This document shows positions 38,883-55,882 of a DNA stretch of 64,000 bases, piece by piece. A program made the translations under genes and the position numbers. The stretch is taken from contig JAGCTY010000031.1 of assembly GCA_017963105.1 (NCBI GenBank), positions 1 to 64,000 on the forward strand. The letters are read 5' to 3'. Below the pieces are notes generated by a model. The model was not told the DNA's origin. It saw nothing but the letters and a program-made list of their open reading frames with translations, and searched no databases. The number at the start of each line of letters is the position of its first letter. Position 1 is the first letter of the stretch. Source of the stretch: Lentisphaeria bacterium (GTDB lineage Bacteria; Verrucomicrobiota; Lentisphaeria; Victivallales; UBA1829).

Positions 38883-40226
38883 ATGAAAAAGAAAACTGTC
38901 TGGATTACCGCCGCGATCCTATGCCTTGTCGCCGTCATTTTTGTGCTGGTGCAGGTATACAGATCGATCCTCATCGAAGGGACGATCACGGACGATCAGG
39001 GAAACGCCATGAACGGGGTTTCCGCCTATGTGACCTTTTCGCGCAAAAAAGCGGGATGGTACAGTGGGACAAAAGAACTCGAGGAGACCGTCGATTCCTC
39101 CTTCCGTTTCGAGGGGAAAGGCGACGCTGTCTTCGTCGTTTTCGCCAAAAAAGGATACGCTCCGGGGCAAATCCAGCTTGACCGCGGGCGCGGCAGCCAA
39201 GTGCTCCGGCGCGACCTCCGCATCGTCATGAAGGAATTGACGCCGGAAGAACTGGAAAAACGTTTTTTCAGGACGATCTACGAATGGAGTCAACTTGATG
39301 TCTACATCGACGCAGGGGAAAAAATGCCCACGACCGAGGACCAGCTTGAGCGTTTGCGCAAGTATTTCGGGCTGGAAAAAAGCGATATGACGGATCTTTT
39401 CGTGAAAGCGATTCGGGAAGGCGTCGATACCGGCGAGGAGATCCTCGCCGAAGTTCATTTCGTCGACGATGAGGACAAGGAATACCTGATTGGCCCTCCG
39501 GACGATCTTTCCGGGATCGAAACGAAATCGGAGAAAAGGTCGCTCAGAGAACGGTATTTCTCTGCAATGCGTTATCTTCAGTATTATCCGCCGCCTCAGC
39601 AGCAGTTTTTGGAATTGATCCGGAAAGCAGTCGAACTGGAGCCGGAGTCCGCGGACACGCTCATTCTCTCTTATACGAAGGCGTACCCGGATTGGGTGTT
39701 CGATGACGGAACGATCCTTGAATTGACCTGCAAAAGCGACATGGAAGAGTTTAATCTTCGCGAGGCCGGCTCCGATTTAAGGGTTCAAGTTCGTCAGGAA
39801 AACGACGAGGCACGCAGGAAAAAGCTTCTTGACAAGGCTTTCGAATGGGCATTCCAGGACGACAAGGTCGAAATCTTTCATTATTTGGATAGGCTTTTGC
39901 TTGACCACTACGATAAGGATTACGCAACGAATCCCGGACGAAAGCTCCAGTTGGAAAAGGATTTGAAGCGTCATGAGGAAGCGGAGATTTATGACTGGGT
40001 TTACCGCCGGACAAAATACGCTCTGGAACATTTCGACGAGGGAGATGAAGCGCTTGAAATGTTATACAAGTTGGATACAGATCCCAAAAGGTGGGATGGT
40101 GAGTGGGAACGTTCCGAGCGTAAAAGACGGATAAGAGAGAGTATAGAAGAGTGGAAGAAGGAGGGAAACGATCCGTCGTATATTTTTTCTGAAGATTTTC
40201 TCGAACGAATATACAAAGATGAATAG
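38883..40226 (+). CDS. Membrane-anchored protein with carboxypeptidase-regulatory-like domain
   Basis: A 447-residue protein. An N-terminal hydrophobic helix (5-25) is an uncleaved anchor or signal peptide. Residues ~30-118 look like a CarboxypepD_reg beta-sandwich (E-G-T-I-T-D-D-Q-G-N-A-M-N-G-V). The C-terminal ~320 residues are helical and strongly similar to those of the protein at 48952-50079: P-D-W-V-F-D-D, K-L-L-D-K-A-F-E-W-A-F-Q-D-D-K, D-W-V-Y-R-R-T-K-Y-A-L-E-H-F. It heads the array of genes separated by the 39-base element. Function unknown. Confidence 0.7.
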   Translation: MKKKTVWITAAILCLVAVIFVLVQVYRSILIEGTITDDQGNAMNGVSAYVTFSRKKAGWYSGTKELEETVDSSFRFEGKGDAVFVVFAKKGYAPGQIQLDRGRGSQVLRRDLRIVMKELTPEELEKRFFRTIYEWSQLDVYIDAGEKMPTTEDQLERLRKYFGLEKSDMTDLFVKAIREGVDTGEEILAEVHFVDDEDKEYLIGPPDDLSGIETKSEKRSLRERYFSAMRYLQYYPPPQQQFLELIRKAVELEPESADTLILSYTKAYPDWVFDDGTILELTCKSDMEEFNLREAGSDLRVQVRQENDEARRKKLLDKAFEWAFQDDKVEIFHYLDRLLLDHYDKDYATNPGRKLQLEKDLKRHEEAEIYDWVYRRTKYALEHFDEGDEALEMLYKLDTDPKRWDGEWERSERKRRIRESIEEWKKEGNDPSYIFSEDFLERIYKDE

Positions 40227-40237
40227 ACTCCTTCTTT

Positions 40238-40276
40238 CCTCACCATCCCCGGCCGACTAACCCCGACACCACGGAG
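40238..40276 (+). repeat. 39-bp leader element, copy 1
   Basis: First of seven copies of an element with core CCGACTAACCCCGACACC ending in CGGAG, which serves as the ribosome-binding site. It is followed by an ATG at 40287 and the orphan signal-peptide start M-K-Y-K-S-V-S-T-I-A-A-I-L-C. Confidence 0.95.
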
Positions 40277-40286
40277 AAAAATCAAT

Positions 40287-40400
40287 ATGAAATACAAATC
40301 GGTCAGCACCATCGCCGCGATCCTCTGTCCACTGGCGACACAATACAGGCGAACGGAAAAACGTTATAATAAGAGACAACAACACACAGGGGGTCCCGAT
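40287..40400 (+). pseudogene. Orphan signal-peptide start, copy 1
   Basis: A 38-codon stub: M-K-Y-K-S-V-S-T-I-A-A-I-L-C, the same signal-peptide start as the genes at 43834 and 45736, breaks off after CTCTG and continues into unrelated, promoter-bearing sequence. It happens to stay in frame with the ATG at 40401, so initiation here would give a non-functional N-terminal extension. A TATAAT box lies at 40365-40370, inside the stub. A near-identical stub lies at 46851-46955. Confidence 0.7.
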
Positions 40401-43400
40401 ATGAAAATGAAATCGATCCGCAGTGCTTTCTTCGCCGTAGTCGCGATCTTTCTGACCGTCGCAGCGTTCACCGGATGCGGCAAAAGCGAGGAAGGCGCGC
40501 CGGCCTCGAACGCCTCGGAAACGAAGACCGAAGCATCCGCCAGCACGACCCTCGAACAGCAAAAGAGCGCTCCGGGCGAAGCGGAACTCAGGAAAGGGCT
40601 TGCCGCCTGTGACAAGAATGACTACGAAGCGGCCGTGAAGTCCTTCCGCGCCGCCGCGGAACAGGGCAACTCGGACGCCATGCTGCTGTACTATGATTGT
40701 CTGGTGAGCAGCAAGATCGCGAAAGACAGGGCTGACTCCATAGAATGGCTGGAAAAAGCCGCGGAGGCCGGAAACCTGACGGCGCAGGCGCTCTACGGCA
40801 GTAAATTTGTGGGCGGGGGGCAGGAAGCGAAGGGGATCGAATACATGAAGCGGTCCGCGGACAGCGGAAACATCCTGGGCATGCACCTGCTCGGGATGAC
40901 CGCCTTTGAAAAAAAGCCCGGAGAAGCGGGCGAGGATGCCTTGAAGTCTCTGAAAACGCTTGCCGGCCTGCCGTTCTCGGAACAGAAAACAGTTTTGGAT
41001 TATCTGCACCGGATCAGCAGCGACTTCAATCTGACGGGAAAACTCAACACCAATACGAACAAGCTCATCGTCATGGATCAATACATGCTCGGCGTGTATT
41101 ACCTCGAAGGCAGAGCGCCCGGCGGGCGGCGGGATCTCGACGAGGCGGCGAAGTGGCTGAAGATGGCAAAGGACAACGGGCTTCCCGATGTCGATCCGCT
41201 CCTGCGGAGGGTTGAGGTGATGAAGCAGAGCCCCGACGCAAGCCGGACCAATGAGGAACTCCAGAAGGCCAGAGCCGAAGCCTTCCTGGCCGATACGCAA
41301 AACCAGATCGACGCTTCGGAATTCGACCTTCGGTTCACCATCACGGACGCCGACGGCAAGCCGCTGGACGGCGTCAAAGTGGAAATGAGACTGGAGCGTC
41401 CGGTTGTCAAATTGCTCCTGAGCGGCGGATCGGAATCCAAAAAACCGGAAGAGAAGACGGTCGATTCCAAGTTCAGCATTCACGAAAAAGGCTGGACGAG
41501 CCTCGAACTTACGTTCATGAAAGACGGCTATTATATCGAAGACCGCTACTATTATATCAACTTCATGCCGAACAGTCCCGACGAGCTCGGCCCGGACGGC
41601 AAACCGAAGCTCGTGATGAAGGAAGACGTCCAGGTCGTCATGTACAAGGGCGTCCCCCCCGGCGACCTGACCGGGACCAGCGGATACCTGATCTATGATT
41701 TAGAAAAAGCGACAAAGACGGTCTGCGATCTTTCCGCGTTCGACAAAAAGCTGGAACGACCGAAAAAGAGGACTGTTTCGGAGAAAGACGAGGAGGACGA
41801 GGAATATGATGACGAGGACGAGGAAGACGAAGAGGAATATGTGGAGGAAATCAGGATCGGAATGAAGAAGGTCGACCTGAAGGCGAAACCGGAATTGACA
41901 AAGTATATCGAAGTGGATTTCAGGCGGGACGAAAACGGCGAAGTCCTGTTCGACGGGACGCTGGGGGACGCCCCGTGCCCCTCATCGTTCATCATCCGTC
42001 TCCACTCCGACGATCCCGACGACGGTTTTATCGTCGTGGACGAATTGGGACCGGGGTTCGTCAGACGGGAAGAATACGAAAAACGTTGTCCGACCGCCCC
42101 GGAAACCGGATACAAAAAAGAACTCGTGTTCGATTTCGGGAAAAAAAGCGCCGATGGGAAATACACGTATAATGATATTCACACATTCGCTTTCGTGAAA
42201 TGCGGACAGCGCTACGGAAAAGTCTTTATCGATCCCGTTTATGTCGACATCGGAAGGAACCGGCCGCTCCGTCTGTTCCACAGGAAAATCCAGTTGACGA
42301 TCAACAGAACCGAAGGCGACAGGAACGTGTCGGGCGGCAGTTTCTATGTCGAACGCGAGCGACCGGCGCAAACCAGGAACGACTTGAAGAAAACGGATGC
42401 GAAGAACGAAGCCAAAGACGCTTCCGATGACAAGGCCGAACTGGCGAAAGAACAAATCCTGCTGATTCATGATGCACTTGAGCAGTACAAACTGGACGTC
42501 GGGACTTATCCCTCCAGTCTGCAGGGCCTCGAAAAGAACGTCGACAAGTCCGAACGCTGGGACGGCCCCTACATCGTGCCGAAGGTCCCGCGGGTGGATC
42601 TCTGGGGCAACAAATACCAGTACCGTTTCGACGCGGAAAAAGGAACGTATCGCCTGTACCTGATCTCGTTCGACCTTTCCGAAACGAGAATCGAGGATCC
42701 CCCGGAATCGGCGCAGGAACAACAGACCGAACCGGACGATCCGAAACAACCGGACATCTTCGCGGGATTGCCCCTCTGGAACACGGCGCGTGACGGAAAG
42801 CCCGAAGTCATGCTCCCCAGACTCGTCAAGGATGCGGCGAAACGTGCGAATGTCAATCTCCAGTCGCTCGGCGATGTCAGGATCGATCCGATCGATGCCG
42901 GGCATTCCTACGCCGAGCTCGATCTCGATGTCGTCGACGAATACGGCAAAATCGTCCGCTTCCTCGAGGAAATCGAGAAGAAAACGCCGAAGCTTGCCTG
43001 GCGCCGCCTCGAACTCCGAGTCAATTCCGCCCGCGAACGCATCGCGTCCGAACTGCAGGACGGCGCGTCCGCTGCGGCCTCCGCCAAAGCGATCCGCATG
43101 AGCGGGCAGGTCCGCGTCATCGCGTACGATCCGGCAGCCGGTCCCTCCGCATCGCCGAAGAGATTTTGGACGGATGACATGCCGGTTTCCCCCGGCGAAA
43201 CGGACATTCTCACCCTGCTTTACGATTTGTCTGTCTCGCTCCCCGATGACGCTCTCGTGACCGTTTTCCGGCTTGACAACTGGAAATGCGAGTTCGTGAT
43301 CCAGACGCTGGCGCTTTATACCGACCTCCCTCGGTACCTGCGCTTCCCCGCCTGGAATATCGGCAGGCTGCAGAAGAGGATCCTTTCCGATGACGTTTGT

Positions 43401-43775
43401 ACTTTCTCCGTGGCCCTTCAGAAAAAAGACAATCCGGAGCCGCGAAAGGACAGTGTGACCCCGGATAAAAAGATCGCGACCATCGTGGCTCTGAACCTCT
43501 TCGACCCGGAAGCCGTTCCGCGTAAGGCGGCCGCCTCCGGCATGCCCGCCTCGAACGGTACGCGCGCGAACAACGCGAAAGACCCTGAAACGGAACTGAA
43601 AGAGCAGCTGAAGAAGGCGATCAACAACCAGAATGAACTGAAAGAACTGCTCAAAACGCTCTCGAATACGCCCGGCGCCACGAAAGAGCAGACCGATATG
43701 GTCGAGCAGCGCCTGAAACGCAACGAACAGGAGATCAGGCGCCTTCGGGAACAGCAGAACAGGCTTCGTCCCTGA
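40401..43775 (+). CDS. Modular lipoprotein: Sel1-like repeats, regulatory-like domain, GspG-like and PilO/GspM-like segments
   Basis: A 1124-residue lipoprotein (lipobox F-T-G-C, Cys22). Residues ~50-300 contain Sel1/TPR-like helices (A-A-E-Q-G-N-S-D-A-M, A-A-E-A-G-N-L-T-A-Q-A-L-Y-G). Residues ~310-650 are a beta-rich module homologous to the protein at 45736-46788, with an acidic insert near 455-475. Residues ~675-755 resemble GspG, including L-D-V-G-T-Y-P-S-S-L-Q-G-L and V-D-L-W-G-N-K-Y-Q-Y. Residues ~800-880 resemble a PilO/GspM ferredoxin-like domain. The C-terminus is a coiled coil. The ATG at 40401 has an AGGGGGT RBS and starts the signal peptide; the earlier in-frame ATG belongs to the stub. 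Confidence 0.75.
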   Translation: MKMKSIRSAFFAVVAIFLTVAAFTGCGKSEEGAPASNASETKTEASASTTLEQQKSAPGEAELRKGLAACDKNDYEAAVKSFRAAAEQGNSDAMLLYYDCLVSSKIAKDRADSIEWLEKAAEAGNLTAQALYGSKFVGGGQEAKGIEYMKRSADSGNILGMHLLGMTAFEKKPGEAGEDALKSLKTLAGLPFSEQKTVLDYLHRISSDFNLTGKLNTNTNKLIVMDQYMLGVYYLEGRAPGGRRDLDEAAKWLKMAKDNGLPDVDPLLRRVEVMKQSPDASRTNEELQKARAEAFLADTQNQIDASEFDLRFTITDADGKPLDGVKVEMRLERPVVKLLLSGGSESKKPEEKTVDSKFSIHEKGWTSLELTFMKDGYYIEDRYYYINFMPNSPDELGPDGKPKLVMKEDVQVVMYKGVPPGDLTGTSGYLIYDLEKATKTVCDLSAFDKKLERPKKRTVSEKDEEDEEYDDEDEEDEEEYVEEIRIGMKKVDLKAKPELTKYIEVDFRRDENGEVLFDGTLGDAPCPSSFIIRLHSDDPDDGFIVVDELGPGFVRREEYEKRCPTAPETGYKKELVFDFGKKSADGKYTYNDIHTFAFVKCGQRYGKVFIDPVYVDIGRNRPLRLFHRKIQLTINRTEGDRNVSGGSFYVERERPAQTRNDLKKTDAKNEAKDASDDKAELAKEQILLIHDALEQYKLDVGTYPSSLQGLEKNVDKSERWDGPYIVPKVPRVDLWGNKYQYRFDAEKGTYRLYLISFDLSETRIEDPPESAQEQQTEPDDPKQPDIFAGLPLWNTARDGKPEVMLPRLVKDAAKRANVNLQSLGDVRIDPIDAGHSYAELDLDVVDEYGKIVRFLEEIEKKTPKLAWRRLELRVNSARERIASELQDGASAAASAKAIRMSGQVRVIAYDPAAGPSASPKRFWTDDMPVSPGETDILTLLYDLSVSLPDDALVTVFRLDNWKCEFVIQTLALYTDLPRYLRFPAWNIGRLQKRILSDDVCTFSVALQKKDNPEPRKDSVTPDKKIATIVALNLFDPEAVPRKAAASGMPASNGTRANNAKDPETELKEQLKKAINNQNELKELLKTLSNTPGATKEQTDMVEQRLKRNEQEIRRLREQQNRLRP

Positions 43776-43786
43776 TAACGCTTACC

Positions 43787-43825
43787 CCTCACCATCCCCA
43801 GCCGACTAACCCCGACACCCCGGAG
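43787..43825 (+). repeat. 39-bp leader element, copy 2
   Basis: It lies 12 bases after the previous stop and ends eight bases before the ATG at 43834. It has one substitution near the 3' end (ACACCCCGGAG). Confidence 0.95.
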
Positions 43826-43833
43826 ACCTTAAC

Positions 43834-45711
43834 ATGAAATACAAAACGGTCAGTACCATCGCCGCGATCCTCTGCGGTATCTTTGCATTGTTTACCGCGA
43901 CTCCGGCGACATCCGCGGAGATCATCGAGCATCCATACTGGATGACGGCGGAAAATACGAAAGGCATCCCGGAAGTGATCCTGCAGGGGTATCTGTATCG
44001 GAAAAACAAAACAAGAAAGGCGCTCGAAAAACAGAACGGCCCCAGGAGCGAAGAAGAGGAACGGAGGATCAACGACGTGTGGAGCGGGAATCTGCTGGAG
44101 TTGTCGCAGTATCTGGCCGAACACCCGGAGGAACAGCGGAAACTGGCGGAACATTACAAGAAGATCAGGATCGACGAGATCGACTGGGGGAATCCGCCCG
44201 ATCCGCCGTGGGTGAACGAGATCATTCGAAAAGAAATGGATCCGGCAAACCTGAAAGTGAACATCGAGCTCTATTACGACAGCCCGGAATGGACGAAAGG
44301 GGCAGCCGAAAGAAATGCGCTGGGAGTTTTCGGCAGAACTTTTTTCCCGGATCAGCCTGCTCCCGTCGAAGGTCCTGACTTTGGAATCGGCTTTGGCGGG
44401 GGTAACGGGAATCATCCGGCCGACCGTTTCGAGCTCCTGAAACTCATTGCGCAGGAAAAAGAGAATCCGCATCAGTTCGATGGTTTCTTCAACGCGAGAG
44501 ACTGGGTGCGGTATTGGGAACAGCCGTACGGCGTCACCCGGAATACCTGCGTGATCGACCGGGAGTTCGAACGGAACGTCATGCTCGTTCTGTCCAGGAC
44601 GGCCCCCATCGCGGAGCCTCAGAAACAATGGAACGCGCCTGTGCTGTCCAGATCCCTCCGGGATGACGATCATTATCAGTATTATCAATACACCTGGCTG
44701 AACCGCTGCAAACTCGGCGTACTGTCCATGCTCATCACCGTAATCGAGGATCATGCGACCGGACTGATCTATAAAAATGATCTGCCGCGCGATGATATGA
44801 GGGCCGCGCTCGACCTCTTCGCCTCGAAACTGCAATCGGGGAACGACGATATGGAAGCGGTCGCCCGTCTTCTCCGCATGATGCACGGGATGGCGCTGTG
44901 CGATATGCCCGGCGGAGCGGAATACGAAGCGATCGGGATGTGCCGCCGTGCATTGACGAAATGGGCAGGGATGAAGAACTGGTACTGGGAAAAATCGGAA
45001 GAACTCCTGCAGCATGACAAGAACAACAAGGATGCAGTGCTGATTCCGCATCCCGTCAAAAAGCAGGATTTCTGGCCGAAACGCGATTCCGTGCAGCCGG
45101 ACGAACCCGAAGTCATCCTCACGCTGGAAGGGACGCTTAACGCTTCGGGCAAGTTCGTTTTTACAGGCGACACGATCCGGTACGACGCACCCGGCGAACA
45201 CCAGGCCCCGTCCGACGTCACGATCGACGGCAAGCCGTGGAAGGACCTGAACCAGCCGTTCAAGCTCGCTTTCACCCCGGATTTCGAGAATGTCATCATC
45301 GCGGACAGAGCGGGCGGGAACGGCGTTATGCTGAACAGAGGTTCGGAGCGGGCAGAGCTCACTCTCTTCATCGTCGATGCACATGCACCCGCGCCGCACT
45401 TTGTGGTCCGGCTGGTCGTCAAAAACGTCAGCAGTTCGCGCACAGAGCCTGCTCGCCTGAACCCGTCGGAGCTCCCGTCCGGCCCGATCCCGTTCCAACA
45501 GCAGTTGCAGATGGCGCTCGAACGGCGCGCCGTGCTGGAAAAAACGATCAGGAATCTTGAATTGGTCCCGGATTTCCCGGAGGAGTCGATCGACGAGGTG
45601 CGCAGGCAACTCCGGGATCTCGACCGTATGATCGAGCTACTGAAAGAGGTCGTCGAAAAAGCAGCCGCCCGTGATGCAAACGAACCACCCTCGCCACCCC
45701 CAGCCGACTAA
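43834..45711 (+). CDS. Secreted protein of unknown function, leader family
   Basis: A 625-residue protein with signal peptide M-K-Y-K-T-V-S-T-I-A-A-I-L-C-G..., cleavage near T-S-A (about 28). No known domain is recognised. The first half is Trp- and Tyr-rich and helical; residues ~430-535 look beta-rich; the end (about 550-615) is a coiled coil. The last residues, P-S-P-P-P-A-D, and the stop codon are encoded by the next copy of the 39-base element, so the original C-terminus may have been replaced. Confidence 0.7.
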   Translation: MKYKTVSTIAAILCGIFALFTATPATSAEIIEHPYWMTAENTKGIPEVILQGYLYRKNKTRKALEKQNGPRSEEEERRINDVWSGNLLELSQYLAEHPEEQRKLAEHYKKIRIDEIDWGNPPDPPWVNEIIRKEMDPANLKVNIELYYDSPEWTKGAAERNALGVFGRTFFPDQPAPVEGPDFGIGFGGGNGNHPADRFELLKLIAQEKENPHQFDGFFNARDWVRYWEQPYGVTRNTCVIDREFERNVMLVLSRTAPIAEPQKQWNAPVLSRSLRDDDHYQYYQYTWLNRCKLGVLSMLITVIEDHATGLIYKNDLPRDDMRAALDLFASKLQSGNDDMEAVARLLRMMHGMALCDMPGGAEYEAIGMCRRALTKWAGMKNWYWEKSEELLQHDKNNKDAVLIPHPVKKQDFWPKRDSVQPDEPEVILTLEGTLNASGKFVFTGDTIRYDAPGEHQAPSDVTIDGKPWKDLNQPFKLAFTPDFENVIIADRAGGNGVMLNRGSERAELTLFIVDAHAPAPHFVVRLVVKNVSSSRTEPARLNPSELPSGPIPFQQQLQMALERRAVLEKTIRNLELVPDFPEESIDEVRRQLRDLDRMIELLKEVVEKAAARDANEPPSPPPAD

Positions 45712-45727
45712 CCCCGACACCACGGAG
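45689..45727 (+). repeat. 39-bp leader element, copy 3
   Basis: This copy begins inside the upstream gene: its first half encodes P-S-P-P-P-A-D and the TAA stop. It differs from the consensus at two positions in the 5' part. Confidence 0.95.
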
Positions 45728-45735
45728 GAAATACC

Positions 45736-46788
45736 ATGAAATACAAAACGGTCAGCACCATCGCCGCGATCCTCTGCCTCGGCCTGACGGCAGGGCTTCT
45801 GGGCAGTTCCTGCAAGACCGGAACGGCTCTGCTGATGAATGCGGATGACAATCTCAGGATCTCGTCTTCGGGATTCGACCTCCGCGGGACCGTGACGGAC
45901 GAAGACGGCAATCCGCTCGACGGCGTGAAGATGGAAATGGCATTCTCGCGCGTCAACACCGCGTCGTTCCGGTCGGAGAACCTGCATGAAACGGAAACGG
46001 TCGATTCGGCGTTTCATGTTCAGAGAAAGGGCTGGACGGAGCTCCAGCTAACGTTCTGGAAAGACGGTTATTTCCCGGAACGACTCGCTTTTGACTCGCC
46101 GTGGTTGGAAAAAGGCAAAAAACGTTATGTCGAGGAGGACGGAGTCCAGGTCAGAATGGTCAAAATGGGACCGATCGCGAAATTATACCGGACCAGGACC
46201 AGCGACTCGATTCGTCTCAAATACGATTTCAAACAGGAATCCGGGGCAATCTGCGACCTCTCCATGCTTCAAGCTTCGGAAGAACTGGACAGAAGGCAAT
46301 ACGAGAACATCGAGGCGACGGCTTTTAAACTGGAATCGGGACCGGAAGCGACGAAGTATCTGGAACTGGATTTTAGGCGGAATGAAAACGGCGAAATCGT
46401 TTTTGTCTCTCTTCCAGGCGTGCTCGCGCCGTGTCCCGCCGAATTGATCGTCCGGCTTCACTCGGACGACCCGGGCGACGGGATGATCTTGCTCAACGAA
46501 CTGGACCCCGACATCACGGAGGACAAGGTCTACAAGAAATACAACACCGCGCCGGAAACCGGATACGACAGGAAAGAAATCGCCTTTGCGCTGACCGATC
46601 AATGGCATGAACTTGACAAGTCAACTAATTTCGTCTATTTGAAATGCGGAAACCACTATGGAAAAGCCAGGATTCGTAACCTTAATATTGAAATACACAG
46701 GACATTTGAGAGCGCCAAGGCATTTATTGCGCTTCATATCAACCGGGTCCCCGGCGACAGAAATCTGACATCACAATTCGGCTTTTGA
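45736..46788 (+). CDS. Lipoprotein with carboxypeptidase-regulatory-like module, leader family
   Basis: A 350-residue protein. The leader M-K-Y-K-T-V-S-T-I-A-A-I-L-C-L continues to a lipobox-like G-S-S-C (Cys26). Nearly the whole mature part matches residues ~310-650 of the 1124-residue lipoprotein at 40401: F-D-L-R-G-T-V-T-D-E-D-G-N-P-L-D-G-V-K, then E-T-V-D-S, Y-L-E-L-D-F-R-R-N-E-N-G-E, R-L-H-S-D-D-P-G-D-G, and N-R-V-P-G-D-R-N. The module therefore occurs both alone and fused. The fold looks like a CarboxypepD_reg domain followed by a second beta domain. Function unknown. Confidence 0.75.
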   Translation: MKYKTVSTIAAILCLGLTAGLLGSSCKTGTALLMNADDNLRISSSGFDLRGTVTDEDGNPLDGVKMEMAFSRVNTASFRSENLHETETVDSAFHVQRKGWTELQLTFWKDGYFPERLAFDSPWLEKGKKRYVEEDGVQVRMVKMGPIAKLYRTRTSDSIRLKYDFKQESGAICDLSMLQASEELDRRQYENIEATAFKLESGPEATKYLELDFRRNENGEIVFVSLPGVLAPCPAELIVRLHSDDPGDGMILLNELDPDITEDKVYKKYNTAPETGYDRKEIAFALTDQWHELDKSTNFVYLKCGNHYGKARIRNLNIEIHRTFESAKAFIALHINRVPGDRNLTSQFGF

Positions 46789-46803
46789 CACCCCACACCA
46801 TCG

Positions 46804-46842
46804 CCTCACCATCCCCAGCCGACTAACCCCGACACCACGGAG
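46804..46842 (+). repeat. 39-bp leader element, copy 4
   Basis: It lies 15 bases after the previous stop and ends eight bases before the stub ATG at 46851. Confidence 0.95.
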
Positions 46843-46850
46843 GAAATACC

Positions 46851-46955
46851 ATGAAATACAAAACGGTCAGCACCATCGCCGCGATCCTCTGTCCACTGGC
46901 AACACAATATCGGCGAACGAAAAAACGTTATAATAAGAAACAACAACACACTTGA
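46851..46955 (+). pseudogene. Orphan signal-peptide start, copy 2
   Basis: A 34-residue frame opening with M-K-Y-K-T-V-S-T-I-A-A-I-L-C, then the same foreign sequence as at 40287, ending at TGA ten bases before the ATG at 46965. A TATAAT box is at 46929-46934. Although translatable, it has no mature protein. Confidence 0.75.
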
Positions 46956-46964
46956 GGTCCCGAT

Positions 46965-48872
46965 ATGAAAACGAAATCGTTCCGCAGCACGATCTTTGCC
47001 GTCGTCGCACTCTTCCTGACCGTCGCAGCGTTCACCGGATGCGGCAAACGCGGGGGAAATGCGGATCATTCTTTACGGGAAGACAATGCCGCATTTGAGG
47101 CAAAGGATGGAGAAAACACGGAAGAGCTTTCGGAAAAAGGCAATGCCGCTTTTGAGGCGAAGGATTTGGAGATCGCGACCATTCAGCTGGAACAGTATTC
47201 CGGCAGCGTCCGCTCCTCACAACCGGACGTAAGAACGCAGTCCGTTTCCATTGCGAACCGGTCCGACAAAACGATTGACTTATACGGCTATTCCGTCACG
47301 AACAACGGAAAAGAAATCCTGCGGATCAACGAGCATGTCGAATTGGAAAAAGATGCAAAGAAGGTGTTTCCGCTCCCTTTAGTCGATACAGGAAAAGAGA
47401 ACAGGAAGCAGGGATTCGCAATCGAGCCATGGTTCCTTTACTCCATAGTCTTCAAGGACGAGAATGAAGCCCGGAAGGAACGGGAAGAGCTTGCGACGAT
47501 GATGGAACGGTATCTGCCGTATCTCACGGAACTGAGTAAAACGATATTCGAAGTAGACTATAGTACGGGGAAATATTCGTTCTACTTTTCGGAAATCGCC
47601 TTGAAGTCTCCCCGGAATGAAACCGTGGACCAGATACTTCTGACGAAGGTGGATGTTCAGAAGAATCCGTATTCCCTTGTGGCATTCTTAGAACCCATAC
47701 AAGCCACAGGCGTTTTTCGGAAAGGAAATCGTGCGATCGTCTGCAGCGTGCCCGAAATGGCGCCTTTCCCGGTCGACATTATCTTTTACAGCGGGCAGTC
47801 ACTGGCGATACTTACAAGCGGGAATCAATACTTCAGCGAAAACACCGGATTGTTTGTGCCGGATCTGAAGATGACATTATCCCTGTATCGTGATCAGGAC
47901 CTCAAGGAAGAAATGGTCCGTCTGGAAGGAGAGAAATTCTTTTTCAACAAAATGAGCGAAGCGCAAACGGATGAACTCGATAAGTTCCTGGACGGGGCAA
48001 GAATGAAGGAAGTGTATTATAAACTTTCCGTCACGCATCCGGTTTTCCCCGAATTGTCGCTTCCGGAGCCATTGACCGGAAAAGTTAATATCCAGCTGCG
48101 GCTAGCGCGCAGCCCCGGCAGCGGCATCGCCTACGAGTACAACGCCCTCAACAACATCACGGGGCAGGTAAGAAATACGAATTGGAACACGGAATCCGCG
48201 ACTGGCAATGGCGGCGGAGCCGTCAACAGAACCGGAGGCAGATCCGCCGCGCAGGACGAGTATCCGGGTTCCCGGCTTGTGAACGGCATTCTTTACTCGG
48301 AGGACGGTTCCACCCTCATTTCCTGCGTTTCCGCGCCGAACGGCCCGTGCATCGTCCAGCCGGGCGTGAAGACCATCGCAGATCGCGCGTTTTCCGGCTG
48401 CGCCGGATTGACGGAAGTCCGCCTGCCGGAAGGCATCACGAAGATCGGCCGCTCCGCATTCTGGAAATGCTCCGGGTTGAAACGCATCAATCTGCCGGAC
48501 TCGCTGGAAGAGATCGGGACCAATGTGTTTGAGGAGTGTACCGGACTGACGGAGATCGCGATCCCGCCGGGCATCCGTGTCATCAAGTCGAGCACATTTA
48601 TCGTGTGTGCCGGGCTGAAGCGCGTCGATCTGCCGGATTCGCTGACGGAAATCGAGTTTGCCGCGTTTACGGCGTGTACCGGGCTGACGGAGATCACGAT
48701 CCCGCCGAACGTCACATCCATCGGGGAAAGCGCGTTTGCGGGGTGTACCGGACTGAAGCACGTGACGCTCCCGGACAGCCTGAAATCCATTTCTCCGGGC
48801 GCTTTTTCCGGTTGCGAGTCCCTTGACCAGGAAACACGGGAGCGTCTGAACAAACTGACACGCAGGCCATAG
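46965..48872 (+). CDS. Lipoprotein with C-terminal BspA-type leucine-rich repeats
   Basis: A 635-residue lipoprotein. The leader M-K-T-K-S-F-R-S-T-I-F-A-V-V-A ends in F-T-G-C (Cys22), almost identical to the protein at 40401. Residues ~25-400 have no recognised domain. Residues ~445-625 hold about six 23-residue BspA-like (LRR_5) repeats. These alternate between F-x-x-C-x-G-L-T-E-I-x-I-P-P-x-I and F-x-x-C-x-G-L-K-x-V-x-L-P-D-S-L types. Such repeats are associated with surface adhesion or protein binding. A Gly/Asn/Thr-rich linker separates the halves. The RBS is GAGGT. Confidence 0.8.
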   Translation: MKTKSFRSTIFAVVALFLTVAAFTGCGKRGGNADHSLREDNAAFEAKDGENTEELSEKGNAAFEAKDLEIATIQLEQYSGSVRSSQPDVRTQSVSIANRSDKTIDLYGYSVTNNGKEILRINEHVELEKDAKKVFPLPLVDTGKENRKQGFAIEPWFLYSIVFKDENEARKEREELATMMERYLPYLTELSKTIFEVDYSTGKYSFYFSEIALKSPRNETVDQILLTKVDVQKNPYSLVAFLEPIQATGVFRKGNRAIVCSVPEMAPFPVDIIFYSGQSLAILTSGNQYFSENTGLFVPDLKMTLSLYRDQDLKEEMVRLEGEKFFFNKMSEAQTDELDKFLDGARMKEVYYKLSVTHPVFPELSLPEPLTGKVNIQLRLARSPGSGIAYEYNALNNITGQVRNTNWNTESATGNGGGAVNRTGGRSAAQDEYPGSRLVNGILYSEDGSTLISCVSAPNGPCIVQPGVKTIADRAFSGCAGLTEVRLPEGITKIGRSAFWKCSGLKRINLPDSLEEIGTNVFEECTGLTEIAIPPGIRVIKSSTFIVCAGLKRVDLPDSLTEIEFAAFTACTGLTEITIPPNVTSIGESAFAGCTGLKHVTLPDSLKSISPGAFSGCESLDQETRERLNKLTRRP

Positions 48873-48904
48873 CCTTTCGCGAGTTCAAGGGAAAAGCGGA
48901 CCCT

Positions 48905-48943
48905 CCTCACCATCCCCAGCCGACTAACCCCGACACCACGGAG
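48905..48943 (+). repeat. 39-bp leader element, copy 5
   Basis: It ends eight bases before the ATG at 48952, about 30 bases after the previous stop. Confidence 0.95.
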
Positions 48944-48951
48944 AATATAAC

Positions 48952-50079
48952 ATGAAACACAAATCGGTCAGCACCATCGCCGCACTCCTCTGCGGCGGCT
49001 TCCTCTCGTTTATTCCGGCATTCGCGCAGGAGAACACGGATGGAAAAACGGAACAAGACAAGACCTCACAAATGCAGCCGCATTACACGCTGGAGGAGCT
49101 GAAGAATGCTGAAATAACGGCGACCGGGGCAACGAACGCCGATAACAATGGATCGTCAGGCACTTCGCTGAACAATGACCAGATGGAAGAATTGACAGAA
49201 TCACTCTTTCAGGCAATTCAATTTTGGTCATCGCTTGATGACATGCGTAACCCAGAAGCCAGTCTTAGCAGATATGATCGCCTTGAGCTCTGGCGTAAAG
49301 AACATAAACTCGAAAAAGATGATATGACGAAGATTTTTGTCAAAACAATTCAAGTTTATTTTTTAGAACTGGAAAAGAAATCAGAAAACAAAAAACTTAT
49401 GATGTGGCATTTTTATGCCATCTCCAGTCTCAGGGATTATCCGCCGCCTCAAAAGGTGTTCAAGGAACTGATTCAAAAAACATTTCAAATGGAACCAAAT
49501 TGTGTTGAAGGGGTCATATATGAGTATATAAGTGTATTCCCGGATTGGGTTTTTGATGACAAACCGATTATTGAAATAATATATAAAACCAACTCAAAAA
49601 CAAACAGACTTTACAGAGTGTGCTCTGATTTAAAAGACCAAATTCTTAAAGAAAAAAATGAAGTTCGTAAAAAGAAGCTTCTTGATAAGGCTTTCGAATG
49701 GGCTTTTCAGGATGACAAGCTTGACATCTTCTGTTTTTTAGACAGAACTTTGCTTGACCACTACGATAAGGAGTATGCAACACATCCTGGACGAAAGCTC
49801 CAACTGGAAAAGGATTTGAAGCGTTATGAGGAAGCCAAGAATTACGACTGGGTTTACCGCCGGACGAAATATGCGCTGGAGCATTTCGGCGAGGGAGACG
49901 AAGCGTTTGAAATGTTATACAAGATGGATACGGATCCCAAATTGCAAGATGGTGAATGGGATCGTTCTGAGCGCAAAAGACGCTCAAGAGAGCATATAGA
50001 AGAGATGAAGAAGGCGGGAAAAGACCCCAGGTCTGTTTATTCCAAAAGGTATCTTGACGAACTATACAGCGATGAATAA
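48952..50079 (+). CDS. Secreted helical protein, leader family
   Basis: A 375-residue protein with signal peptide M-K-H-K-S-V-S-T-I-A-A-L-L-C-G, cleavage near A-F-A (about 24). The mature part is homologous to the C-terminal ~320 residues of the protein at 38883-40226 but lacks its regulatory-like domain. Shared landmarks are Y-P-P-P-Q, F-P-D-W-V-F-D-D, L-L-D-K-A-F-E-W-A-F-Q-D-D-K and R-R-T-K-Y-A-L-E-H-F. The DNA is visibly more A+T-rich in the middle (about 49,200-49,750) than in the 3' part, where it closely matches the paralogue. Function unknown. Confidence 0.72.
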   Translation: MKHKSVSTIAALLCGGFLSFIPAFAQENTDGKTEQDKTSQMQPHYTLEELKNAEITATGATNADNNGSSGTSLNNDQMEELTESLFQAIQFWSSLDDMRNPEASLSRYDRLELWRKEHKLEKDDMTKIFVKTIQVYFLELEKKSENKKLMMWHFYAISSLRDYPPPQKVFKELIQKTFQMEPNCVEGVIYEYISVFPDWVFDDKPIIEIIYKTNSKTNRLYRVCSDLKDQILKEKNEVRKKKLLDKAFEWAFQDDKLDIFCFLDRTLLDHYDKEYATHPGRKLQLEKDLKRYEEAKNYDWVYRRTKYALEHFGEGDEAFEMLYKMDTDPKLQDGEWDRSERKRRSREHIEEMKKAGKDPRSVYSKRYLDELYSDE

Positions 50080-50085
50080 ACATCC

Positions 50086-50124
50086 CCTCACCATCCCCAG
50101 CCGACTAACCCCGACACCACGGAG
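50086..50124 (+). repeat. 39-bp leader element, copy 6
   Basis: It ends eight bases before the ATG at 50133. Here the downstream signal peptide differs from the family leader, so similarity stops near the start codon. Confidence 0.95.
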
Positions 50125-50132
50125 GATATAAC

Positions 50133-53042
50133 ATGAAATCTAAAACAGCTTGGATCATTGCCCTGATCGCGCTGCCGCTTCTTGCGGCAGTATTCACTCT
50201 GCACGCACAGAAACAAGACGACGGACGGGACAAACAGGAGCGCTCTTTTGGAGTTGAAAAGATTTATATTAGTGATGGTATTTTAAATTATTGTCTATCT
50301 CCGGATGCAGCTGACAGCGCTGTTGTGCTTTATTCCTTTGATATTCGAGATGGAGAATGTAAACAATACTATTTACCTATGACAATCGTTCCCGAAATCG
50401 ACACCAGAAATGATGGGAATAAACAAATCATTAAATTCCCCCTTGCATGGTACATGAACAGCGAAGAGTTACTTATTGTATTTCATGATTTAGAATCAGA
50501 TGCAATGGGCAGAGTTATATTTTGTCTTTTTTCAACAGACAGGACCCGCGATTTTGATTTTCGGTCTTTTACAGATTATTATGAATATCAAAATGATATA
50601 ATGAAGTATAAGGGGTTTTATTTCGGCGTGGGTGGCCGCATATATATCCATGGAATGAGTTCTGCCCCATTTGTGGATCATCGTCTAACTAACAATTCTA
50701 AAATATGGTATGATTTTGCTGGCAAAAATATTATTGCACGTTTCCCATCCTTATCCGATAAGCAAGAAAACTGGATGCCATCAGAAAATCCAGCATACTA
50801 TAAATGGATGTCGTATGCAATTGAAGATGGTAAGAGTATTGTTATTCAAGATGATCAATTGAAAGATTTTTACCCATTATCAAGTATTTCTGTAAAAGGG
50901 AAAAAAATCTATACGGATAATGGTGAAACGATCAACTTTCCAAGCGATATTGATTCGATCATTTGGGGTATTGATAACAATTCAACTCCAAGTATAATAT
51001 TGTTATCTCAAACCGATAAGATTAAAATTTCTAAAAAGGATTATCCGAAACTTCCGAAGTTGATTCTTGCAAATGAAGACTCTGATTACGTGATGTTTAT
51101 TTTTGACCGCAAGATTGATTCATCGAATGTGCAAGGTTCTTTACAGGAGATCAAAGATGTGCTCGAAAAGAGCAGTTTATTACAACAATATCCACCACGT
51201 CCTAAGAAAAAGGAAGTTAAGCCAACAGAAAATGTGATACATACTGCTACGCCATCGCCTGAAGAAATGAAACGGAGAGAAGCTGAATATTTAGCGAATC
51301 ATCTCAAAGTATTGTATGAATCCGCCAATATTATTGTTACAATTACGCCACCAGATATCAATCAATTCAGTGAAGGTAATATTCAATTGCTTGATAAATC
51401 GAAACAAAATAAAATATTATGGGAAATGGCAATTCCAAGTCAAATGGAATCAGGAACAGGGGCCGGGGCTATAAAATCAACGGCGTTTTTTGAAGATAAT
51501 AAACGCGGATTTTTCTATGCTGCTATTATCCGCAATGAACTGTTTCCTGAAGTAGTTATTCTTAAAATTGATTCAAAGAATGAAACAGTAAGTGAATTAA
51601 GGTTTGCCAGTCCTTTTCTTCCGGACCTGCCATTTAAAAAGATGAAGTTGAACGTGGTCCAAAATATTGTTTTTTTATCTGTCACATATAATGACAATAA
51701 ACATCAAGAATCTGCTATAGATATTTCTTCTGGTTTTTACAATATGATATTGAATGAGAGACATAGAAAATATCCATATATACCGACAGAATTGTTTCTA
51801 TTATTGACATCAGGTGACACAAATGATAATGATGATTTTCTCGACATACAGGATATAAAACATAAAAGGTTAAAGTCACTGTATGCAGACCTGACGATTT
51901 TAGGATTAAGTTTCGCCGAATATTTGTATCATGTCGATGTTAAAGGCTCCTCCATTAATGATAGCACATTTGCTAATCTAAACAAAAAATATCATGTTAG
52001 TTCGTTGCTTAACAATAAAGTTTATGAAGATGAGTTAGATCACTATTTGGATCAAAACTCAGAGATTTTATGGTCTATTCAAAAAAGAATAGACAAACGA
52101 ATAATTCGACAGGCAAAATTTCTAAACAAAGATGCATTCTTAAAACAAATAGCTCAAATACATGTATCGAAAGACGCGGGGGCTGCCGTTAATCCATCGC
52201 CTGAAGAAATGGAACGGAGAAAAGCTGAATTTTTAGCGAATCTACCGAAAGATAACATTTTTACCGATGACGAGTTTAAAGCTCTGTTTCCCAAGGTTGA
52301 ATATGATAAAATTTCCGATTTATACGAGCGTGGCATGGCTTATGATTGGGATGAGAAATTCTCCGATGCCATGAAATGCTTTGAGCAAGACTCATCATTA
52401 AAGTCAAAATTAATGTTGGCAATGTATTACAAAACCGGGAGACCTGATATTCCAAAAGACTCTGTCAAGGCTAATGCTATCTTTAATGAGATAATTGAAG
52501 ATGTCAGTAACAAATCCGCCCCCACTCCTGAAATGTTATGCATAGCCGGACGCGCCTGCATGGAATTTGTTTCAACAGAATTTTTTGAAACACAAGAGTT
52601 TCAAAAAAAAGCAACAGAATTCTTCAAAGAATCCATTGAGCAAGGATATGCTGCTGCCGCTTTTTATCCTCAATATTACATAAGAAACAATGGTAAGTTT
52701 CAACCTCGGGAATTACTTGAAATAGCCAACAAAAACAACTGTTTGGACACTGAAGTGTTAGCCGCAGGGATGGCATTATTTCGGAATCCTGTCTTTATGA
52801 ATTATCGCAACAAACAGGAAAACCTGTTAACCATCAAAAAGGGTATTCAAGCACACATCCCATTGGCGGAATATATCCTTGGCGAATTATTCTATCTTGA
52901 TGCCGCGAATCCTGATCTTGCATTAAAGCCGAATCGAGAACTGGCGTTATTCTGGATGAAACGTGCCGCGAATCATGGAGAAGCGGATGCCATAGAACTT
53001 TTACGGCAAAATCCCACTTTGAGATCATTGCTGCATCCTTGA
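50133..53042 (+). CDS. Large secreted protein with C-terminal Sel1-like repeats, A+T-rich
   Basis: A 969-residue protein with a signal peptide (about 1-26). Residues 30-690 have no recognised domain; alternating short strands suggest a propeller-like or beta-rich region. A segment P-S-P-E-E-M-x-R-R-x-A-E-x-L-A-N occurs twice (about 374-389 and 687-702). Residues ~740-965 carry Sel1/TPR-like helices, ending in a clear one (A-L-F-W-M-K-R-A-A-N-H-G-E-A-D-A-I-E-L-L). The coding sequence is conspicuously A+T-rich compared with the rest of the window. Function unknown. Confidence 0.72.
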   Translation: MKSKTAWIIALIALPLLAAVFTLHAQKQDDGRDKQERSFGVEKIYISDGILNYCLSPDAADSAVVLYSFDIRDGECKQYYLPMTIVPEIDTRNDGNKQIIKFPLAWYMNSEELLIVFHDLESDAMGRVIFCLFSTDRTRDFDFRSFTDYYEYQNDIMKYKGFYFGVGGRIYIHGMSSAPFVDHRLTNNSKIWYDFAGKNIIARFPSLSDKQENWMPSENPAYYKWMSYAIEDGKSIVIQDDQLKDFYPLSSISVKGKKIYTDNGETINFPSDIDSIIWGIDNNSTPSIILLSQTDKIKISKKDYPKLPKLILANEDSDYVMFIFDRKIDSSNVQGSLQEIKDVLEKSSLLQQYPPRPKKKEVKPTENVIHTATPSPEEMKRREAEYLANHLKVLYESANIIVTITPPDINQFSEGNIQLLDKSKQNKILWEMAIPSQMESGTGAGAIKSTAFFEDNKRGFFYAAIIRNELFPEVVILKIDSKNETVSELRFASPFLPDLPFKKMKLNVVQNIVFLSVTYNDNKHQESAIDISSGFYNMILNERHRKYPYIPTELFLLLTSGDTNDNDDFLDIQDIKHKRLKSLYADLTILGLSFAEYLYHVDVKGSSINDSTFANLNKKYHVSSLLNNKVYEDELDHYLDQNSEILWSIQKRIDKRIIRQAKFLNKDAFLKQIAQIHVSKDAGAAVNPSPEEMERRKAEFLANLPKDNIFTDDEFKALFPKVEYDKISDLYERGMAYDWDEKFSDAMKCFEQDSSLKSKLMLAMYYKTGRPDIPKDSVKANAIFNEIIEDVSNKSAPTPEMLCIAGRACMEFVSTEFFETQEFQKKATEFFKESIEQGYAAAAFYPQYYIRNNGKFQPRELLEIANKNNCLDTEVLAAGMALFRNPVFMNYRNKQENLLTIKKGIQAHIPLAEYILGELFYLDAANPDLALKPNRELALFWMKRAANHGEADAIELLRQNPTLRSLLHP
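51252..52241 (+). repeat. Internal ~49-bp direct repeat within the 50133 gene
   Basis: The two copies are at 51252-51300 and 52193-52241, with a few substitutions. Both encode S-P-E-E-M-x-R-R-x-A-E-x-L-A-N. The annotated span covers both copies and the ~890 bases between them. Confidence 0.85.
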
Positions 53043-53060
53043 TCATTTTCAATTTAACCG

Positions 53061-53531
53061 ATGACGAACGTAATTTTCAACAGCGGCTTTATCGGCTTTT
53101 TGGTTTGGGTGTTGCTCTTTGCCGTCAGCACGGCGGCACTGGCAATCGCTATCCGCTGTGTGTGGGGGTTGCATAAAACTATATTTGCGATGGCGGAATT
53201 CAAAGAAAAGTTGATTCCGTTTCTTTTTCTCGCTTTCGCTCTGATGTTTTCGGTCCTTCCTCTGCGCGTCCAGGCGGCATTGCCGAAGGAACTTCCGACT
53301 GCACCGACGAAGTTCCTGACGGGAGCCTGCCTGACACGTTCGGAAGACCTTTGGATCACGGCGGAGGCGGGCGGCGTCTACCGTCTGAGCGGGCAGGAGA
53401 TGAAGCCGAAGTGGAAGGATATGCGGAAGCAGCCGGGATTCCCGAAGACGGACAACTGCCAGTCTATAACAAAACAACAACAACTTGAAACCTCGCCGGA
53501 GCAGCACCCCTCACCACCCCCAGCCGACTAA
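53061..53531 (+). pseudogene. Truncated composite: membrane segment plus start of a propeller-type secreted protein
   Basis: A 156-codon frame. Residues 1-43 resemble the first helix of an ExbB/TolQ/MotA-type protein (G-F-L-V-W-V-L-L-F...I-A-I-R-C-V-W-G-L). From Met44 a second signal peptide begins (M-A-E-F-K-E-K-L-I-P-F...). It leads into L-T-G-A-C-L-T-R-S-E-D-L-W-I-T-A-E-A-G-G-V-Y-R-L, the first blade of a regulator-propeller-like protein, which then breaks off. The last residues, P-S-P-P-P-A-D, and the stop come from the 39-base element. A shorter start at 53190 would give the propeller piece alone (113 residues). It is probably a remnant of two genes. Confidence 0.65.
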
Positions 53532-53549
53532 CCCCGACACCGCATGGAG
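53509..53549 (+). repeat. Leader element, copy 7 (41 bases)
   Basis: The most divergent copy, with GCATGGAG in place of ACGGAG at the 3' end. It provides the stop codon of the upstream frame and the RBS of the gene at 53558. Confidence 0.9.
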
Positions 53550-53557
53550 AATTTAAC

Positions 53558-54652
53558 ATGAAACACCGATTATTCCTGCCTGCGCTGATGTGCTGCCTGA
53601 CACTGACGGCATTCGGTTTCTTCGTATTTGCCCTGGTCCGTGACTCCATGCGGAACACGCCGCAGACGGACTGGGAAGGATGGAACATGTATGTTGCCGT
53701 CCCTGAATTCGATTTGTCTTGCCGATTGGCCAAGAAATACGGGCTTGATGCCTGCCCGCCGTCAGATTGCACAAACGATCGCATTATCGGGTTCCGGTTC
53801 AACCTTGACCACCCGGAACACGCGGCGGAGATCGTGCGCGATCTCCATGAATGGAAGCGCCAGTCGCCGGAACTCGTCAACGAAACGTTCGGCGTGGATG
53901 CCTACCTCTATCGCTCGGATGACAAGCACTGGCGAACAGAACGGCTTCTGGTCATCCGCACGATGATGCCTGCGCCGGGAAGGACCGAATTTCAGGGGGC
54001 GTATCAGGGGCGGACAAGCGACGTGGTGATCGAAAACGGCAATGTTTCGAAGACGTTCACACCGGATGAGTTCTATCATCCCGCCGACGGATCCGACGAA
54101 GCCGATACATTCATCCGGGCCCTTGCGGACGCCCCCGTAGCCGAGACGGAGAAAACGGCTGGGGAAAAGATTCCCGATGTCAACAACGAGGCGATGCTCA
54201 CAAACCAGAAAGCGTACTTGGAAAAGAGCGGTCGTTCCATGTTCGAGATTCTGCCGGGACTGTTCGCCGCGACATGGTTCGACTTCATCTGCGCGATTGT
54301 CCTTTTCCTTTTCGCCATCCGTTATCGGGATCAGGGAATCGGCGGGCGTCTCTTCCCGTTATGGCTTCTGACCATCCTGCACATGCTTCTGTTTCCTTCG
54401 CTCGACCTCATTCCGCTCGACCATGACAAGATCGCCGGGACCATGACCGGAACCATTTTCCTCGTTCTGGAGTCGACAATCTTGTTTTCGCCCCTCGTCC
54501 TGTTCCTGTTTGCCCTAGTCTACGGAATCGCGCTGAGCAACATGAAGCGAACGGACCGCCCGTTGAAAATCGCCTTCGTTTTATTTTCCGCAAACGTTCT
54601 CATTCAGGGGCTGATCGCATTGAGCGTATGGGCCCTTTCGCAGGGCGGATAA
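53558..54652 (+). CDS. Membrane protein of unknown function
   Basis: A 364-residue protein. An N-terminal helix (8-30) is followed by a ~195-residue extracytoplasmic region. Three or four further helices lie at about 230-355 (L-F-A-A-T-W-F-D-F-I-C-A-I-V..., L-W-L-L-T-I-L-H-M-L..., V-L-F-L-F-A-L-V-Y-G-I-A-L). No domain is recognised. It is the last gene behind a leader element, although its N-terminus does not match the leader family. High-GC codon use resumes here. Confidence 0.68.
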   Translation: MKHRLFLPALMCCLTLTAFGFFVFALVRDSMRNTPQTDWEGWNMYVAVPEFDLSCRLAKKYGLDACPPSDCTNDRIIGFRFNLDHPEHAAEIVRDLHEWKRQSPELVNETFGVDAYLYRSDDKHWRTERLLVIRTMMPAPGRTEFQGAYQGRTSDVVIENGNVSKTFTPDEFYHPADGSDEADTFIRALADAPVAETEKTAGEKIPDVNNEAMLTNQKAYLEKSGRSMFEILPGLFAATWFDFICAIVLFLFAIRYRDQGIGGRLFPLWLLTILHMLLFPSLDLIPLDHDKIAGTMTGTIFLVLESTILFSPLVLFLFALVYGIALSNMKRTDRPLKIAFVLFSANVLIQGLIALSVWALSQGG

Positions 54653-54952: not shown

Positions 54953-55882
54953 TTATGGATTCTGCGATGATGCTTTTTCCTTTATTCCATCAGGTTCCAT
55001 GCTGGAATCATCGCTTTCGTAGTAGTAGGAATAATCAATCCCCTTCATAAACAGCTCACGATTATCTATTTCGTTGGTCAAGGCCGCTCGAAGCAGAGAT
55101 TTCAGATGGGTACTGTTGTCAACGCTTTCCCTCATGGCGCTCAAATACTCGAATTTATCGATCCTGCTCCAGTCCACACATTTCTTCAGGGTGCGTTTGA
55201 GCATCAAATCTAGCCAGATACGCGTACTGCGGCCATTGCCTTCCATAAACGGGTGCGCTATATTCATTTCAATGTATTTGTCCGCGATCTGCTCAAACGT
55301 GGTTTCCGGCATGGACTCTATCATAGGAAGCGTGGTCCCGAAATGGCGCGCATTGGCAAAAGCAAACCCGCCTTTGCTGATGTTCCTGTCGCGGATTCTG
55401 CCGGCAAATTCGTAGAGTCCACCAAAAATATAGGCATGAATCTGCTGAAGACACTCAATAGTTCCCGGTTCCAGAGAAGACAACAGACCGCTTTCGAAAA
55501 GATCATATGCTCTCTTTTTGCTTTGCCCGTCTATTGTATTGTCACTGTACAGGAACCAATCCAGAAACTTCGATGCCTTTGTATTGGGGAAACTTTTGGC
55601 AAGCGCAATGATTCCGGCACTGTCAAGACAATCCGTTGAACGGGATCTGCCATCGGAACCGGGAAGGCGCAATAGTTTTACGGCATTGATTAGCTGGTCT
55701 TTTTCCTTTTTCAGCTTCCCCTTCAAGTATTTCCAGTAATTGCGGGTCTTCCCGGCATCGTCCTGCTCATTAAGCACAGCAACAATATCCAGAACGGAAA
55801 ACCACCATTTGCTGTTTTGAACATCCCAAACAGCCCGGACTTTTTGCTTGCCGTAATGTCGTACAGAAATTTTAACAATCAT
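54953..55882 (-). CDS. fic: Fic-family adenylyltransferase with N-terminal Bro-N-like domain
   Basis: A 309-residue protein. Residues 1-110 resemble a Bro-N-type domain (V-R-A-V-W-D-V-x-N-S-K-W-W-F-S-V-L-D-I-V-A-V-L). The Fic core H210-P-F-M-E-G-N-G-R-S-T-R is complete, so transfer of AMP (or another nucleotide part) to a protein hydroxyl is predicted. No inhibitory helix motif (S/T-x-x-x-E-G/N) or antitoxin gene was identified. Base composition is more A+T-rich than its neighbours. It lies between two copies of the PP2C gene's 3' end, consistent with acquisition as a unit. The target is unknown. Confidence 0.88.
   Translation of the reverse strand: MIVKISVRHYGKQKVRAVWDVQNSKWWFSVLDIVAVLNEQDDAGKTRNYWKYLKGKLKKEKDQLINAVKLLRLPGSDGRSRSTDCLDSAGIIALAKSFPNTKASKFLDWFLYSDNTIDGQSKKRAYDLFESGLLSSLEPGTIECLQQIHAYIFGGLYEFAGRIRDRNISKGGFAFANARHFGTTLPMIESMPETTFEQIADKYIEMNIAHPFMEGNGRSTRIWLDLMLKRTLKKCVDWSRIDKFEYLSAMRESVDNSTHLKSLLRAALTNEIDNRELFMKGIDYSYYYESDDSSMEPDGIKEKASSQNP

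Follow-up and report, generated by a model that had tools for sequence, protein, structure and literature searches.

The window, that is, the whole stretch of 64,000 nucleotides analysed here, belongs to contig C133 of a rumen Lentisphaeria/Victivallales MAG (3.03 Mb, 187 contigs, 87% complete) and contains seven exact copies of the core CCGACTAACCCCGACACC, all on the forward strand and all within 40253-53541 (core starts at 40253, 43802, 45704, 46819, 48920, 50101 and 53524). Dinucleotide shuffling gives a chance expectation of 0.03 copies, with a maximum of one per shuffle and none at seven. The core begins 15 nt into a 39-nt element, CCTCACCATCCCCAG-CCGACTAACCCCGACACC-ACGGAG, the 3' end of which is an RBS (GGAG), with an ATG 8-10 nt further on. 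The elements lie at 40238-40276 (preceding gene 40287), 43787-43825 (gene 43834), 45689-45727 (gene 45736), 46804-46842 (stub 46851), 48905-48943 (gene 48952), 50086-50124 (gene 50133) and 53509-53547 (gene 53558), all on the forward strand. The third and seventh overlap the 3' ends of genes 43834 and 53061, whose stop codons fall inside the element, at ...PPPAD-stop, that of 43834 within the core. Since the seventh copy stands directly 5' of gene 53558, the array extends to 54652. The initial annotation, which had described a repeat of about 39 bases ending seven times at the RBS of genes for exported proteins or of a signal-peptide stub, is thus confirmed. Its further statement that similarity runs on through the ATG into the same signal-peptide coding sequence in five of seven cases holds as well: 40287, 43834, 45736, 46851 and 48952 have the common start MK[YH]K[ST]VSTIAA[IL]LC, and the remaining two, 50133 and 53558, have other signal or membrane starts.

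The array opens with a gene that has no element (38883-40226, +); its leader, MKKKTVWITAAILC, is related to the shared one, and its DNA is 93-94% identical to a region of contig C30 of the congener G010. Gene 40287 (40287-43775, +) consists of the stub behind its element, a nested lipoprotein leader and a mature part, and its translation start is probably ATG 40401, in the nested leader. The mature part carries a Sel1 repeat and a T2SSG-like domain (Pfam). This pseudopilin-G-like domain (window 42430-42700, +, E 1.9e-15) sits mid-way in an exported protein of 1162 aa, an unusual place for it. Two further exported proteins with the shared signal-peptide start follow: 43834 (43834-45711, +), of unknown family, and 45736 (45736-46788, +), which has a domain also found in 40287 and in the array-type gene on contig C64 of the same genome. 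Structure prediction for 45736 was poor (mean pLDDT 57.8) and Foldseek matches were weak, with only an N-terminal beta-sandwich plausible from the model. The orphan stub 46851 (46851-46955, +; 34 aa) stands 5' of the lipoprotein leader of 46965 (46965-48872, +), a lipoprotein-type gene with BspA-type leucine-rich repeats (LRR_5, E 4.7e-49). A 205-nt repeat, 89% identical, is common to 40287 and 46851 and comprises the abandoned signal-peptide stub and the second, lipoprotein leader; 46965 and 40287 thus have a leader in common in front of unrelated mature parts. Gene 48952 (48952-50079, +) is followed by 50133 (50133-53042, +), with Sel1/TPR-like repeats below curated cut-offs, by a small gene ending in an element (53061-53531, +), which has a homologue on contig C38 of G001, and by the membrane-protein gene 53558 (53558-54652, +).

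Export is assigned from the signal-peptide and lipobox-like starts of the array genes, and a surface location of their products is likely. Anti-phage defence was dropped as a function, as none of the nine array proteins had a PADLOC match. The mature parts had been described as unrelated or shuffled, which stands as far as different families and chimeric genes are concerned and fails for the paralogous pair 38883/48952 (52% amino acid identity) and for the domain common to 40287 and 45736 (37-39%).

The element itself, aligned over 18 copies from several species, has 19 invariant columns. A structured RNA element was ruled out, since no stable fold was found and folding was no better than in shuffles (z -0.25 and -0.40); the element likewise has no detectable inverted-repeat architecture. 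In five copies from relatives (two in G002 and one each in G005, G006 and G011) a promoter-like repeat, TTGACT-17 nt-TAAAGT, precedes the core, which is diverged in the G006 copy and in one of the G002 copies and begins about 12 nt past the -10-like hexamer. Given this position right behind the promoter-like repeat, the 5'UTR of the promoter-bearing copies would begin with the core itself. The promoter-like repeat, TTGACTTTTCCCGGAA-NNNN-TGNTAAAGTAGAG, is dispersed in eight congeners before two types of 5'UTR, the core type (L184, L188, L189, L190, L192) and another (L182, L185, L186, L187, L191); it was seen in relatives only, with no match in the source genome.

The left part of the element (CCCCCAGCCGACTAACCC) also belongs to a second dispersed intergenic family, CCGACTTCCTGCCCGGAGCCTGCC, here called repeat 2, which forms a GC-rich hairpin in some copies and has 33 copies in 11 congeners (L070:9933, L064:41-97, L065:318-384, L066:5133-5187 and others). 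Repeat 2 directly abuts the core at several loci, with joints that vary by several nucleotides, and we infer from these arrangements that the 39-nt element arose when repeat 2 and the 5'UTR were joined at the core common to both. The source genome has no copy of repeat 2; the array is thus independent of it, and an interpretation of the element as a mere part of repeat 2 was ruled out. Because conservation is higher in the element than in the genes, part of what is seen may reflect selection on the element in its role as a 5'UTR.

A search of the genome and its relatives, as the initial annotation had suggested, yielded ten copies in the source genome, copies in 9 of the 13 genomes of the genus, and no instance of element plus leader among 186 relatives from outside the genus. 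The counts, obtained with a sequence-only profile, are 14 in G002, five each in G001 and G006, three each in G005 and G010, two in G008 and one each in G004 and G011; 12 of the 13 have the leader in at least a diverged form. When 84,980 bacterial and archaeal genomes were scanned for exact matches, ten stretches were returned, all of them on rumen MAG contigs (Lentisphaeria, Victivallales and RUG bins), and a widespread intergenic repeat was ruled out on this basis. The element is confined to the genus. A literature search for intergenic or surface repeats of rumen Lentisphaeria found nothing relevant.

Copies outside the window in the source genome lie on contigs C89 and C64 and, diverged, on C54, each within about 1.2 kb of a contig end. 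Another dispersed, hairpin-like intergenic repeat, GCTTCGCTGGGGGCGGCTTCGCCGCCTCGGTAAGCTCGCTTGCGCTCG, occurs near the C89 and C64 copies (L045:1379-1481 and 1564-1636; L046:2465-2567). A gene is cut at the start of C89 (L073:3-1157, -), and an ankyrin-repeat gene at the start of C64 (L074:1-1161, +); some other array proteins have no known family. The element was also seen, with array-type genes, on a viral-classed IMG/VR contig of 98.5 kb (IMGVR_UViG_3300037455_001397, L059:3431, -), where one gene is 96% identical to the C89 gene of the source genome; this contig may be a bacterial or proviral one of the same genus. Relatives of the two cut genes (96% and 68% DNA identity for C89 and C64) are consecutive there in one frame and followed by the element, so that the cut genes may be two halves of one gene. 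The contiguity of these pieces suggests a second array in the source genome.

The array site is flanked by a conserved frame, w32122, on one side and a PP2C gene on the other, which are near neighbours in congeners too. Between them the source genome holds nine genes and seven elements, and congeners zero to about four. G002 has several array-type genes and two degenerate elements, G005 two genes, one of them 38883-like, along with two partly diverged elements, of which one precedes a ten-codon stub; in five congeners only a homologue of 53558 (44-47% amino acid identity) occupies the site, without an element, and others have no array genes. A second array site is common to G001 and G010 and differs in content. 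The initial annotation had considered that related strains might all carry the same genes behind the same copies, and this is not the case: orthologous loci differ in content. Adjoining the array (window 54953-55882, -) is a gene with Fic and BRO-N domains, 94% identical at the same site in G003 and not found there in other congeners; the array site thus also gains and loses other genes.

Two genes are, by their matches, chimeras with sharp joints. In 50133 the element and signal peptide (50086-50237) match the C64 gene of the same genome at 88.8%, and from 50241 on the match is to a gene on contig C38 of G001, at 95-97% over almost 3 kb, which places the joint at about 50220-50241. The G001 counterpart has an unrelated start and no element, and in G010 a third leader (element plus MKHRVFLIAIALCAVV) is fused at a later point of the same protein (window 51298). 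In 40287 the element, stub and lipoprotein leader (40247-40479) match the second gene of G001 at about 90% and the mature part (from 40451) matches that genome's first gene at 86-88%, with the switch at the lipobox sequence TTCACCGGATGCGG. A gene of G002 is 98.0% identical over 985 bp to the mature part of the C64 gene, and the leaders of the two differ. Recombination appears to have left footprints in the form of stubs, at 46851, in G005 and where the C64 gene ends. The leader had been regarded as a fixed module; this notion was abandoned, as leaders are themselves exchanged and stacked.

The core, too, marks points at which sequence relationships change. Two orthologous pairs of sites (G002 C18 with G006 C15, and G002 C22 with G010 C59) are 97.9-100% identical up to CCGACT[AG]ACCCCGAC and unrelated beyond. 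The core-to-core cassette with gene 48952 (48918-50111, +) is 92.1% identical to G002 C18 between its left and right cores, and the DNA outside is unrelated on both sides. Over 20 loci, with blocks of at least 80% identity and at least 150 bp and with boundaries from -20 to +40 counted as lying at the core, 16 of 77 block starts fell there against 1.8 by rotation, and 15 of 77 block ends against 1.7, an excess of about nine-fold that none of 2000 rotations reached. Reciprocal pairs are counted twice in this test, so its effective n is smaller; the excess is still large. In the signal-peptide zone boundaries are only weakly in excess (12 against 6.5). Between species, array genes are up to 98% identical in DNA, compared with 86-89% for the neighbouring PP2C gene, and this greater likeness of the array DNA indicates recent movement between species. 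The recombinational swapping of exported proteins proposed at the outset is borne out in so far as chimeras and flank switching at the core are present; a dedicated or rapid switching system is not, and the exchange is one seen between species, by comparison of MAGs.

We consider it probable, at about 0.62, that the dispersed 5'UTR/RBS/signal-peptide repeat acts as a short-homology recombination joint by which exported proteins are reassorted between species. The element would then be the 5'UTR/RBS part of a dispersed expression-and-export leader, fused at its left to a short gene-trailing repeat; in some relatives the leader would comprise promoter, UTR core, RBS and signal peptide. The near-identity of leader and core at many loci is proposed to let them serve as short stretches of homology. 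Recombination, either general (RecA-type) or driven by microhomology, would replace, duplicate, delete or import whole cassettes from core to core or, as an alternative outcome, attach a new mature part to a leader already in place, with joints at the lipobox or where the signal peptide ends. Such a mechanism explains all of the switches, whether they lie at the core, where 15-20 nt are shared, or at the lipobox or signal peptide, or have very little sequence in common. DNA would move between rumen species of the genus by a transfer route that is inferred, as is the enzyme. The outcome would be that exported proteins, which are probably located at the surface, turn over while their leaders are reused, with stubs and stacked leaders as footprints of short-repeat recombination; expression from the leaders and selection for diversity are presumed in this scheme.

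It is conceivable, if rather unlikely, that the array instead arose by tandem operon duplication and divergence, with the element retained because a 5'UTR/RBS is required there, perhaps as the target of a regulator, and exchange only incidental. The paralogous pairs, the close spacing of genes on one strand, the position of the core in the 5'UTR of promoter-bearing copies and the invariant columns shared across species are all compatible with such a history. It leaves unexplained, however, the genes whose leader and mature part differ in origin, the 98% identity of mature parts behind different leaders and the switching of flanks at the core, and the core is also present without a gene leader behind it. 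The chimeras have already weakened this explanation.

A dedicated site-specific recombinase acting at the core CCGACTAACCCCGAC, integron- or Xer1/vpma-like and not a known enzyme, could also be imagined to move the cassettes, and this seems quite improbable. Such an enzyme would fit the recurrence, at independent loci, of switches at the same 15-18 nt, and also the presence of a core at both ends of a cassette. Chromosomal integron arrays likewise consist of same-strand, mostly unrelated genes between repeated elements and exchange whole units, but the element described here is shorter than attC, is placed at the RBS of the following gene and has no attC-like hairpin. The integron integrase profile (TIGR02249) gave no hit over its cut-off of 265 in any of the 13 genomes, MAGs that are 69-94% complete; the best match reached 92.5 bits, and matches skip about model positions 190-236 and have the look of XerC/XerD-type recombinases. 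Together with the missing hairpin, this ruled out an integron. A Pfam scan of the nine array genes and selected neighbours found no recombinase by the array or recurring in the loci of congeners, where a single phage-type integrase lies about 10 kb from the G006 copies. Against a site-specific enzyme also stand the lack of inverted repeats and of a stable fold, the variation by several nucleotides of the joints between core and repeat 2, and the joints located in signal peptides, away from the core; it would account for the core switches, not for the others. It is highly doubtful that CCGACTAACCCCGAC is a genuine recombination site, used by a dedicated but unrecognised enzyme to swap cassettes for exported proteins, within rumen Lentisphaeria and between them, with no integron integrase involved.

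Usual assembly k-mers are longer than 15-20 nt. All sources are MAGs, and copies near the ends of C64, C89 and C54 indicate that element regions do break assemblies, but it is extremely unlikely that short repeats led the assembler to false contig joins, and thereby to false chimeras and arrays, because core joints share only 15-20 nt, some joints (50133) share almost no sequence, and the same leader-mature pairs recur in independent MAGs (the stub with the MKTKAIRN leader in G001 and G002, promoter-UTR-MKHRFFLIALL in G005 and G011); for the last two kinds of junction in particular, assembly error is unlikely.

Short-homology reassortment would make the array evolve, by analogy, like the erp/UHB genes of Borrelia and partly like the vpma/vsp genes of Mycoplasma. 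The Erp family is described as the product of recombination between a single promoter, leader and localisation sequence and many diverse ones that encode the external part (PMC10016077). As in these OspE/F-related proteins of Borrelia burgdorferi, with their upstream homology box, a conserved promoter or leader region precedes diverse mature exported proteins here, and a common leader with mature parts of independent origin is found; the promoter repeat is present in relatives only. Erp loci, however, are allelic sites on cp32 prophage plasmids, whereas these are same-strand chromosomal arrays with an intergenic 39-nt element, adjoining PP2C and SecA genes on a chromosomal contig. The leaders, unlike those of Erp, are of several types and stacked, and the likeness lies in the mode of evolution. 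In the Vpma/Vsp systems of Mycoplasma agalactiae and M. bovis the 5'UTR, which holds the recombination sites, and the signal peptide are conserved, xer1 lies next to the locus, and the mature parts contain unique and shared regions (PMC2268961). The conserved 5'UTR and signal peptide before variable mature parts have a parallel here; the adjacent xer1 recombinase, the inversions and the single promoter of Vpma do not, as genes and elements all point the same way and each gene has its own RBS. Compared with both systems, the cassette-bounding element is distinctive, and the phylum and the setting are new.

Shuffling of exported proteins behind shared leaders, which is familiar chiefly from pathogens such as Borrelia and Mycoplasma, is thereby extended to a gut bacterium that is uncultured and belongs to another phylum. 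Host immune evasion is a less obvious driver in the rumen; alternatives are phages, protozoa, competing bacteria or attachment to feed particles. Across congeners many intermediates survive, namely stubs, stacked leaders, cassettes bounded by cores and the same site in forms with cassettes and without them, so that the way in which families of this kind arise can be reconstructed.
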